Assembly (NCBI GenBank): GCA_019429255.1
Contig: JAHYIY010000024.1
Span: 1-37,496 of the forward strand
DNA length: 37,496 nucleotides
Reading direction: 5' to 3'
From: Desulfuromonadales bacterium
GTDB taxonomy: Bacteria; Desulfobacterota; Desulfuromonadia; Desulfuromonadales; Geopsychrobacteraceae
The notes beneath the pieces were generated by a model. The model was not told where the DNA came from and searched no databases. It was given only the letters and a program-made list of their open reading frames with translations. The first letter of the stretch is position 1. Each line of letters starts with the position of its first letter. Of the stretch, positions 7,170 to 37,059 are shown piece by piece. Position numbers and translations under genes: made by a program.

Positions 7170-7217
7170 ATACCAAAGTGCCCCGTTAACCTGATAGTTA
7201 ACGGGGCGCTTTGGTAT
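7170..7217. repeat. Long hairpin with 21-nt arms and a 6-nt loop
   Basis: The arms 7170-7190 and 7197-7217 are complementary at 20 of 21 positions, the exception being a possible G-U pair, with loop CTGATA. No T-run follows on either strand, so it is not a standard intrinsic terminator. It lies between two convergent genes and may still stop or stabilise transcripts. It ends three bases before the left target duplication of the adjacent MITE. Confidence 0.75.
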
Positions 7218-7228
7218 GAATAAGTAAA

Positions 7229-7435
7229 TTTGGTTATCCACATGGCTCCAGCTATAACGGTTAGAAGATCGGGACCGATGCGACCTGCTAATAATCTGGA
7301 TCCTGCGACTTCGCGCAGGATGACAAAGAAGCACGTTGATGGAAAAGAACCGGGCGTCATTCTGCGCGTAGCGAAGCGAAGTCGCAGAATCTATATCCTG
7401 TTTTCTGCTTTACTGGAGTCAAATAGATAACCAGA
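7229..7435. mobile_element. MITE-like element, copy 1 (207 bp, 8-bp target duplication)
   Basis: This non-coding element has imperfect terminal inverted repeats. The left end TTTGGTTATC matches the reverse complement of the right end, and 18 of 23 terminal positions agree by hand count. It is bracketed by a perfect direct duplication TAAGTAAA (7221-7228 and 7436-7443). Two internal stem-loops are visible: ATCCTGCG/CGCAGGAT (7300-7321) and ATTCTGCG/CGCAGAAT (7359-7390). A second copy at 35463-35668 differs at about twenty positions. It contains no transposase, so a full-length element elsewhere in the genome would have to mobilise it. It sits 17 bases past the gltX stop codon. Confidence 0.85.
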
Positions 7436-7460
7436 TAAGTAAAAAATGTCGCCAGTTTAA

Positions 7461-34420: not shown

Positions 34421-35314
34421 TTAGAAGTGGTGCACGTAGCGCAGTGTCAGTCGTTCGCCTTTGGTGCGCTGCTTGACGCCTGATTCCTTATAGGCGTTGA
34501 TGAACAGATGCTGTTTCTGGTTAACATGCCAGACCAGACCAGGGCCGACGGCAAGAACTTTTTCGCGTCCGGGGATGTCATTGCCGTTAATTTTGCTGTC
34601 GGTGATCTGTCTGAACCAGTAGCCGTTGATCCCAAGGCGCAGCTGCCGGGGGATGATTTCGTAGGCTGTAGAGAAGTTGGCATGCACTGCCTGACCGGCC
34701 TTAAATTTGGTATCATTATTCTCATCGTTCCACAGATAGTGCAACCGCCATGAGGCTGTCCACTGTGGAGTCAGGAACGCGGTTGCCGCCCAGTAGGGGT
34801 TAAAAGAAAAATGATTGCTACCGGCGTTAATAGCGATTTTGTCGTCATACTCGCCCGTCGGGAAGATCAGCTGCAGTTCGATGCGCTGCATGAATAGTGG
34901 GCCGTTGGCCCCCATGATCGGGTCCCACTGCAGGTAGGGACCGACAAGCAGATCACCGATGCCGCTGTCGGCAGATAATCCGGAGCCACCTTTCAGGTCG
35001 TAATTCACCAACGGCAGCATGGCGTTAATCCCCCATTTACCTCCTAACAGCAGCTCCTGGCTGGATTGATAGAGCAATTGCGTCAGGCTGACCCAGACAT
35101 CCATCTCAGCAGCTGGCGGACCATCGACGAATTTATCCGTGGTGTAATACTGGATGTATTGCTGGAAGTAAACCCCGGGGCCGGCCGGGGGACCACCATC
35201 GACAAAACTGGTAAACCCGAGATTCACTGATGGTTGGCCATAGCTCCAACAACTGGCCGGCAGGACAACGGCGACAAAGGCCAGCACACTAACCGCAACA
35301 AGAAATTTTTTCAT
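34421..35314 (-). CDS. Outer-membrane beta-barrel protein, phenol-degradation MetA-like family
   Basis: This 297-residue protein has a signal peptide (MKKFLVAVSVLAFVAVVLP) and many alternating hydrophobic/polar strands. It ends in a terminal Phe (TLRYVHHF), the usual signature of an outer-membrane barrel recognised by the BAM machinery. Segments such as GDLLVGPYLQWDP, RIELQLIFPTGEYD and GLVWHVNQKQHLFINAYKE are typical of the family named after a phenol-degradation (MetA) pathway protein, which is proposed to import or export hydrophobic compounds. The ATG at 35314 has GGGAG six bases upstream; the longer frame adds 11 codons without support. It is upstream of ispH-pfa but separated by 386 bases and a hairpin. 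Confidence 0.82.
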   Translation of the reverse strand: MKKFLVAVSVLAFVAVVLPASCWSYGQPSVNLGFTSFVDGGPPAGPGVYFQQYIQYYTTDKFVDGPPAAEMDVWVSLTQLLYQSSQELLLGGKWGINAMLPLVNYDLKGGSGLSADSGIGDLLVGPYLQWDPIMGANGPLFMQRIELQLIFPTGEYDDKIAINAGSNHFSFNPYWAATAFLTPQWTASWRLHYLWNDENNDTKFKAGQAVHANFSTAYEIIPRQLRLGINGYWFRQITDSKINGNDIPGREKVLAVGPGLVWHVNQKQHLFINAYKESGVKQRTKGERLTLRYVHHF

Positions 35315-36027
35315 CGGCAACTCCCGGTCAAAAGGAATAAAGAGCACACGAAGGTACCATTACGTCAGAGAAACGATAGAGCGCAAATTAACATGTGCGT
35401 AAAATATTTGTCAGTGAAAAAAGTGGCGTCTTTCAAGTACCCCGATTGATTAATTTCACTTATTTGGTTATCCACTTCGCTCCAGCTATAACAGTTAGAA
35501 GATCGCGCCCGATGCGACTTGCTAATAATCTGCATCCTGCGACTTCGCGCAGGATGACACCGAAGGACGTTGATGGAAAAAAACGGGTGTCATTCTGCGC
35601 CGAACGAAGCGTAGTCGCAGAATCCATATCCTGTTTTCTGATTTACTGGATTCAAATAGATAACCAGATTCACCTATTCACTCTGACCCTTTTGGCCGAT
35701 GGTGGTGTTACATCTTTTCAATTTAGCGCACACCAGGCCTATGCCGACGCGCCGTGCCGACAACCACAATCCCTCAGAGTGATCTAAACGGACTAACCAA
35801 ACGGGATACTAGATACTTAATCAGGCCCGGGGGATGAAAATCACTTTCGTTGGCTCAACGAACTTTCTGTCGGCAGTGTGGGACAGGATTGATTTAATTA
35901 TGACAGCAATGATCAGGGGGGGGCGGGGTTCTGCGTCCACAATCAGCAACGGCAGATGACCTTTTGGCCTTCTGCCGCTACAGAGTATGCTGCGGCGACA
36001 AAACAGTCAAAAGTTGAACTCACATCG
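35315..36027. other. Intergenic region with MITE copy 2
   Basis: There are 713 bases without a supported gene. It contains the second MITE-like element (35463-35668) with its flanking duplication. The ORFs crossing 35395-35787 and 35943-36377 run through repeats or the antisense of the diguanylate cyclase gene. A G-rich tract lies at about 35917-35926. Nothing else is recognised between 35677 and 36027. Confidence 0.6.
35463..35668. mobile_element. MITE-like element, copy 2 (206 bp, near-perfect 8-bp duplication)
   Basis: It has the same ends as copy 1 (TTTGGTTATC at the left, GATAACCAGA at the right) and the same two internal stem-loops. It differs from copy 1 at about twenty positions, including one indel, by hand count. 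The flanks are TTCACTTA (35455-35462) and TTCACCTA (35669-35676), an 8-bp duplication with one mismatch. It is in the same orientation as copy 1 and is non-coding. Confidence 0.85.
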
Positions 36028-37059
36028 TCATTCCCGCGAAAGCGGGAATCCAGTGTGATGTAAGCTGATAAAGAATGGCTCCCGCGTGGCTTCCGTGTTC
36101 TTGTGGTTGTGAGACATATCATCAGAGTAGAAACAGTAGTTGTTTTTGCGGTGCGTTTTAACATGGTACATGGCGATGTCGGCATTATGGAGCAGGACGT
36201 CCAGGTCTGTTCCGGCTGACGGATAGATGGCAACGCCAATGCTGAGTCGGACATGTAGTTCGTACCCGTTGATATGGAAAGGCGTGCGTATTTCGCTGAG
36301 GATTTTTTCAGCGACGGTAGTGACGCCGTGCTGATCAGCCACATCGGGCAAAAGCAGAGCAAACTCGTCACCTCCATAACGGCTCAGGGTGTCCTCAGCA
36401 CGCAAACATCCCAGAATTCTTGTCGCCATCAGTTGCAGGACGCGATCACCGATCAGATGTCCGTGTCTGTCATTGATCGTTTTAAAGCCGTCCATATCCA
36501 TAAACAATAGAGCAAACTTTCGTTCATTTCGCTGCGCATGGACCAGAACCTGATGGGCCCGATCATTAAAGAGTTGACGATTGGGCAGGTTGGTCAACTG
36601 ATCGTGATAAGCCATGTAACTGATATTTTTCTGCTCTTGCTGTAACTTCTGCTTTTGTTGAAATTGGTCCAGCGCTTTTACGATAGTGGTGAGAAGTTCT
36701 TCGGGTTTATAAGGCTTGCAAATAAAATCGAAAACACCCATCCGCATTGCTTCCTTGACCCAGGGGAAGCTGGTCTCACCGCTGATGACAATAATTTCAG
36801 AATCAAGACCAGCTCGATGGTGAAACGCAATGACATCCAGTCCATTAGTGTCAGGCATCTGCAAGTCAAGGAGGATCAACTGAGGGGTGCTGTGCTGTAG
36901 TATGCTGATCGCTTCATCACCGCCCGATGCCGGCACCACATTTGTATAGCCATTGATATGCAGCAGTTGCTCAAGGCTTTTAAGCTGGGTTTGTTGGTCT
37001 TCAACGACTAACAATTGACACCGGGCAAAGGATTTTGTGCCGATTGACGGTTCAAGCAT
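36028..37059 (-). CDS. Response-regulator diguanylate cyclase (REC-GGDEF)
   Basis: This 343-residue protein has a receiver domain (about 14-130) with phospho-acceptor Asp65 (LILLDLQMP), acidic residues Glu20/Asp21 and Lys115 (CKPYKPEE). A short Gln/Lys-rich helix (132-145) leads to a GGDEF domain (150-312). The active-site motif GGDEF is intact at 229-233 and the inhibitory site RxxD is present at R220-D223. It would make cyclic di-GMP when phosphorylated; the cognate kinase is not in the window. The last residues (about 330-343, ending HHTGFPLSRE) are translated from a palindromic repeat and are unlike the family end, so the native stop has probably been lost. The ATG is at 37059. Confidence 0.93.
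   Translation of the reverse strand: MLEPSIGTKSFARCQLLVVEDQQTQLKSLEQLLHINGYTNVVPASGGDEAISILQHSTPQLILLDLQMPDTNGLDVIAFHHRAGLDSEIIVISGETSFPWVKEAMRMGVFDFICKPYKPEELLTTIVKALDQFQQKQKLQQEQKNISYMAYHDQLTNLPNRQLFNDRAHQVLVHAQRNERKFALLFMDMDGFKTINDRHGHLIGDRVLQLMATRILGCLRAEDTLSRYGGDEFALLLPDVADQHGVTTVAEKILSEIRTPFHINGYELHVRLSIGVAIYPSAGTDLDVLLHNADIAMYHVKTHRKNNYCFYSDDMSHNHKNTEATREPFFISLHHTGFPLSRE
36030..36049. repeat. ATTCCCGC palindromic repeat at the 3' end of the diguanylate cyclase gene
   Basis: The perfect stem ATTCCCGC/GCGGGAAT with loop GAAA has flanks GTC and CCAG. It has the form of the small palindromic repeat ATTCCC-N8-GGGAAT, known as dRS3 in Neisseria and seen in many other Proteobacteria. It overlaps the stop codon and last codons of the REC-GGDEF gene. 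Confidence 0.8.

Follow-up and report, generated by a model that had tools for sequence, protein, structure and literature searches.

A probable IS1595-family MITE, apparently orphaned, with a REP-like palindromic interior in a Pelovirga genome

Introduction

The window, i.e. the whole 37,496-nucleotide stretch of Desulfuromonadales DNA analysed here, carries between a PilZ-like gene and gltX a short repeat that raises the question of which kind of transposase moved it. An earlier note on this DNA had read positions 7221-7443 as a 207-bp element with inverted ends inside an exact 8-bp target-site duplication, and had left the ends unplaced among the named IS families. Here we match these ends to a clade of IS1595-family elements, and we consider the repeat, with high confidence, to be a MITE of that family.

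Results

MITE copy 1 occupies 207 bp on the forward strand at 7229-7435, as delimited by the sequence itself, the genome search and the duplication test. Its outermost letters are TTTGGTTATC...GATAACCAGA, and it is enclosed by two occurrences of TAAGTAAA, at 7221-7228 and 7436-7443, which were read directly; the left one was also set against a control of mispaired flanks. The 23-bp inverted ends have a consensus of about TYTGGTTATCYAYTTNRCTCCAG. The left end, TTTGGTTATCCACATGGCTCCAG (7229-7251, forward strand), was established by the end-pattern search and the end comparison, and reads TTTGGTTATCCACTTCGCTCCAG in copy 2 and other copies; the right end, TCTGGTTATCTATTTGACTCCAG (7413-7435, reverse strand), shares 18 of 23 positions with the left-end consensus. 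Copy 2, 206 bp long and 90% identical to copy 1, lies at 35463-35668 on the forward strand. It had been described as showing the same duplication: its flanks, TTCACTTA (35455-35462) and TTCACCTA (35669-35676), are indeed near-identical, but they agree at 7 of 8 positions, so that the duplication is inexact.

The interior holds two REP-like hairpins in head-to-head orientation, GTCATCCTGCG...CGCAGGATC at 7299-7324 on the reverse strand (tag TGTC, tail CCA) and GTCATTCTGCG...CGCAGAATC at 7356-7391 on the forward strand (tag CGTC, tail CTA in copy 1). Open reading frames of at least 80 aa that overlap the window copies extend into the flanks, and none is transposase-like by inspection. As RNA, copy 1 is predicted to fold strongly (-76.4 kcal/mol, z -5.2), as expected from nested inverted repeats, and Rfam at gathering scores returned nothing but a tRNA in the whole window. 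A strong, terminator-like inverted repeat lies at 7170-7217, directly before copy 1 and between convergent genes. Elsewhere in the window (13045-33170), PfaA-like and PfaD polyunsaturated fatty acid synthase genes stand directly beside an olefin-like set on one strand; this set comprises OleA-, OleC- and OleD-like genes and an alpha/beta hydrolase, with the Ole-specific models below their cut-offs.

The window's genome (G000) comprises 2.74 Mb in 61 contigs and is 99.93% complete. Searching it with 7229-7435 as query, as had been proposed, yields 23 matches, of which 14 are copies with both ends; truncated and hairpin-only matches and repeat matches to one place were left out of the duplication count, and in three copies (L005, L008 and L016) one or both ends were set by hand, two bases past the BLAST match. 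The 8-bp flanks are identical in 7 of the 14 copies and alike at 7 or more positions in 10, the other four agreeing at 6, 5, 5 and 3 positions. By eye, the last of these (L016) would gain an exact duplication if its right end were moved one base outward, a shift that was left out of the count. When left and right flanks were drawn from different copies, none of 182 pairs was exact and 5 of 182 reached at least 7 of 8, and no width between 4 and 12, 8 excepted, yielded more than a single exact match. The element at 7221-7443 is thus borne out, with matching coordinates and a duplication beyond chance; a lack of further copies, or flank duplications at chance level, either of which had been named as telling against it, was not what we observed.

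Twelve of the 14 complete copies measure 204-208 bp, and the other two 197 and 210 bp. Identity to copy 1 is 90-100% in 11 copies (copy 1 included) and 74-83% in three older ones. Two subfamilies can be distinguished, 93-98% alike within and 89-92% alike between, and one copy (L009) falls outside both, at 90-92% to each. After removal of the element and one copy of the duplication, open reading frames of at least 130 aa, which are reading frames and not gene calls, span the site in 2 of the 14 copies (the old L013 and L015).

An empty counterpart of the copy-1 site is found in a congener (G002), in which the two genes flanking copy 1 in the window, gltX and the PilZ-like gene (named from its sequence), are adjacent without the MITE. 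With the element and one copy of the duplication deleted in silico, the alignment with G002 is gap-free over the stretch that starts in the final bases of the terminator-like hairpin and runs into gltX; two one-base gaps occur further upstream, in and beside that hairpin. Since the target bases at the empty site have diverged, the evidence consists of synteny and spacing. G001 has the same neighbours, a short spacer and no MITE, its spacer being too diverged for good alignment, and in G003 (the same record as G079) gltX alone aligned around the site. The flank of copy 2 (34421-35462) has no match in the three congeneric genomes, and hence the empty-site evidence is limited to copy 1. Together, the copies, the duplications and the empty site support the earlier proposal that a non-autonomous element was inserted by a transposase.

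With up to 3 mismatches allowed, the end pattern occurs at 31 sites in the window's genome, and the reversed control pattern at none. C22:24136 and C48:113260 were rejected as parents, ordinary genes standing beside them and no transposase appearing in their ORF lists, as was C20:131233, where an element of 245 bp shares these ends, has another interior and lacks a transposase. The site at C16:47574 lies inside an apparent coding sequence and was taken as chance.

Scanning genome contigs with the end pattern recovered 41 loci, 24 of which are titled Desulfuromonadales, Desulfuromonadaceae, Geobacteraceae, Malonomonas or Pelovirga, 7 'Deltaproteobacteria' and 10 otherwise. The match in a 'Chloroflexi'-titled bin sits at the same place as that in a genome of the window's family (G060 and G126), which makes the title doubtful. 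Nine of the 41 loci (L067, L068, L070, L072, L074, L076, L081, L095 and L096) have pieces of IS1595-type transposases next to the end. The scanned loci contain 24 end pairs, and the flanks of 11 agree at 7 or 8 of 8 positions, compared with 5 of 552 in the control; without this MITE's own two copies (L063 and L094), the count is 9 of 22. Other elements (L062, L065, L073, L075, L087, L091 and more), from Desulfuromonadales and other assemblies, combine the same IS1595-type ends with different interiors, several of them with 8-bp duplications. By eye, several same-end elements with different interiors hold nested palindromes.

Full-length IS1595-type elements with these ends are present in G024, G025 and G005, three members of the window's family (L150, L151 and L152; 1022, 1027 and 1023 bp), and in Desulfatitalea (L129), where a 1094-bp element is enclosed by an exact 8-bp duplication, TATTGAAA. 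The Pfam scan of open full-length transposases covered L150, L151 and L152, and all three exceed the cut-offs of Zn_ribbon_IS1595 (PF12760) and DDE_Tnp_IS1595 (PF12762). In a Planctomycetaceae assembly (L067), ends 1004 bp apart surround a frame-broken gene; both of its pieces are above the cut-off of the NCBIfam IS1595 model NF033547, and the pieces match Zn_ribbon_IS1595 and DDE_Tnp_IS1595, with PF12762 above cut-off in one of the two. On four Malonomonas rubra contigs, at five of their ends in all, and in one Spirochaetales and one Desulfuromonadales assembly, the inverted end also leads into an IS1595-like reading frame. The loci of M. rubra DSM 5091 (L068, L070, L074, L081 and L095) are contig ends within one IS1595-type element, implying that a multicopy IS probably fragments that assembly.

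The left-end consensus of the MITE and the IS1595-type end of M. rubra have 22 of 23 bases in common, and the right end 19 of 23. In comparison with the full-length elements, the MITE ends agree at 15-21 of 23 positions (15-19 for L150 and L152), and the likeness to the parent elements hardly passes the 23-bp ends. Among the five full-length elements bounded by these ends, an exact duplication is found in L129 only: L150 and L151 have no duplication, L152 starts at a contig edge, and L067 agrees at 4 of 8 positions in register. A duplication of 8 bp is described as usual for the IS1595 family in the text cited (PMC8101967).

The presence of the end follows the relatedness of the transposase. 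Upstream of N-terminal transposase matches, at up to 4 mismatches, it occurs in 13 of 13 loci at identities of at least 60%, in 2 of 6 at 45-60% and in 1 of 17 below 45%, the sole case in the lowest class (L148) being a 336-bp element that resembles a deletion derivative. On the wrong strand, used as a control, the end was present in 1 of 13 cases of the top identity class and in none of the other classes, and six internal matches have no end upstream. Seven of the 13 top-class loci are circular, having been found through that same end, and six were found independently of their own end (L150, L151, L152, L129, L138 and L173); the genomes of L129 and L138 were searched because other sites there carry the end, and the L173 match covers just 26 residues. 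By these counts, the 23-bp end and one IS1595 transposase clade go together.

As a check, it had been suggested to look in the window's genome for a transposase gene that shares these ends, and for IS1595 none was found there: the PF12762 profile gave no match in G000, G001 and G003, and neither did an IS1595 protein query against G000. The one PF12762 match in G002, the IS1595 transposase L127, has different ends (CCTGATTAGCAC) and was rejected as a parent. An autonomous IS1595 partner in the same genome, usual for a MITE and not required, is therefore missing from G000 by these searches. As read from the coordinates, all end sites examined in this genome are more than about 1.4 kb away from the nearest contig edge, which makes a collapsed IS1595 copy hidden at a contig break unlikely. 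The MITE has matches in all four genomes of its genus (the window's own included, and G002 in pieces only) and in none of 33 other genomes of the family; in the order, the query matched 1 of 23 genomes, with its hairpin only. G003 is Pelovirga terrestris, and the window's genome, being congeneric, is a Pelovirga species under the genus definition used.

Both hairpins of the interior have a CGTC or TGTC tag, a stem of 8-9 bp whose first pairs are A-T and, in most copies, a CCA tail. Their loops of 6 and 16 nt lie outside the 4-5 nt reported for CGTC-type REPs (PMC3733652, in the part cited), and we therefore term the interior REP-like instead of assigning it to that type. Of 27 strict hairpin hits in the window's genome, 25 belong to MITE copies or remnants. 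Similar hairpins in tail-to-tail arrangement are found outside the MITE on contig C61 of the same genome and in G058, indicating that such hairpins also exist alone; other interior-only places (including L017, L047 and L215) resemble decayed MITE copies by eye. Among 19 same-end elements, the REP-like test was positive in this MITE's two copies only.

A few variants were also noted. In L046 (G001) and L063, whose rows are identical and probably represent one genome, the loop of the second hairpin has the opposite orientation to that in the other copies, so that the perfect palindrome is longer. L037 and L045 (G058) are tandem arrays of about 24 bp made of half the REP-like hairpin. At 36026-36052 of the window, a stand-alone palindrome, CGTCATTCCCGCGAAAGCGGGAATCCA, matches the description of CGTC-type REPs as given in the cited part of PMC3733652.

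Discussion

What we observed are the inverted ends, the 8-bp duplications, the many copies, the empty site and the recurrence of these ends on IS1595-type elements elsewhere. Since ends of an IS1595 clade are combined here with a genome in which no IS1595 transposase was found, an orphaned IS1595 MITE is the best reading of the repeat, and for the same reason its movement by an IS1595 enzyme is something we infer rather than see. A DDE transposase of this clade, supplied in trans, would bind the 23-bp ends, move the gene-less unit and insert it at a staggered cut of 8 bp in DNA that is rich in A+T and mostly intergenic; the 8-bp duplication would then result from repair of the cut. The MITE probably originated from an IS that lost its transposase gene and gained a REP-like palindrome pair in its interior. 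Given the two subfamilies of copies, at least two amplifications are probable. The transposase source seems to have been lost later from the window's genome, which suggests that the MITE has outlived it there and can probably no longer move unless an IS of this kind is acquired anew.

The head-to-head REP-like pair could also be taken, in the manner of a REPIN, as the mobile unit itself, moved by a Y1 (RAYT) transposase with the outer ends incidental. Y1_Tnp is indeed encoded in the same genome (5 matches in 4 genes), and G001, G003 and G058 contain single hairpins or interiors alone, some of the latter resembling decayed MITEs by eye. However, the outer inverted ends, bordered by 8-bp duplications, are where the copies terminate, and to our knowledge Y1 enzymes produce no target-site duplications. 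Nor does the hairpin, at up to 3 mismatches, occur at any of the five Y1 loci of this genome, within about 1.5 kb on each side or to the contig end, and nearly all strict hairpin hits there belong to MITE copies or remnants, while G002 has 7 MITE-derived matches and no strict hairpin hit. We consequently regard this explanation as very unlikely.

DDE families that make 8-bp duplications also include IS1, ISL3, IS66 and IS256, and a MITE of such a family might resemble IS1595 in its ends by convergence. The lack of an IS1595 transposase in the window's genome, where IS1595 and Y1 were the families searched for, would agree with this; the near-complete match of the left-end consensus to the M. 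rubra end and the coupling of end and transposase clade, however, render it highly improbable. Spread of the copies by segmental duplication or recombination instead of transposition is scarcely credible, because the flanks of the copies inspected show no visible relation to one another and each copy has a duplication of its own; no point in its support was found.

Within the IS1595 reading, the interior deserves attention of its own. CGTC repeats are said, in the cited part of PMC3733652, to have no dedicated transposase and possibly to be moved by others, and the MITE is a plausible instance of this, the direction of capture aside. More speculatively, CGTC-type REP pairs might have been spread by IS1595-type ends acting as their vehicle, and these ends might repeatedly package other nested palindromes in Desulfuromonadales, a possibility that we find rather doubtful. 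If it were true, decay of the MITE would seed 'orphan' REP pairs across genomes. The MITE offers a testable route by which REP-like palindromes could multiply without a transposase of their own. The analysis also gives a family name to a previously unrecognised repeat which, apart from its REP-like interior and orphan state, is one more bacterial MITE family.

A literature search of open-access papers found no report of this MITE. Geobacter uraniireducens is related to the window's bacterium. Its Chunjie MITE is described as 235 bp long and mostly intergenic (PMC10969869), a likeness in size and location alone. Some further reports have an indirect bearing: according to the portions cited, IS1595 belongs to the principal transposase families in a Desulfuromonas strain (PMC8235581), a MITE tied to IS1182 is on record (PMC11578231), and ISApl4, an IS1016-group element, has 14-bp ends and 8-bp repeats (PMC12561309). 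The CGTC-type REPs, as described in PMC3733652, have in common with the MITE interior the tag, an 8-bp stem started by A-T, the CCA tail and the head-to-head hetero-pair, but their loops are shorter, and the pair of the MITE sits within transposon ends. The IS1595-type elements L150, L151, L152 and L129 and those of M. rubra have ends like those of the MITE, with an 8-bp duplication in L129; they differ in carrying a transposase gene, in measuring 1.0-1.1 kb where full length, and in sharing almost nothing with the MITE past the ends. Among the closest descriptions is that of the ISHwa6 MITE of Haloquadratum walsbyi, with 165 bp, 25-bp ends, an 8-bp duplication and 7 copies (PMC3852290): it is likewise non-autonomous, assigned to IS1595 and flanked by 8-bp duplications, whereas its host is an archaeon, and the likeness is one of description, not of compared sequences. 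On this precedent, as far as the cited text extends, an IS1595 MITE is a known kind of element, and the REP-bearing hybrid interior is its only unusual part.
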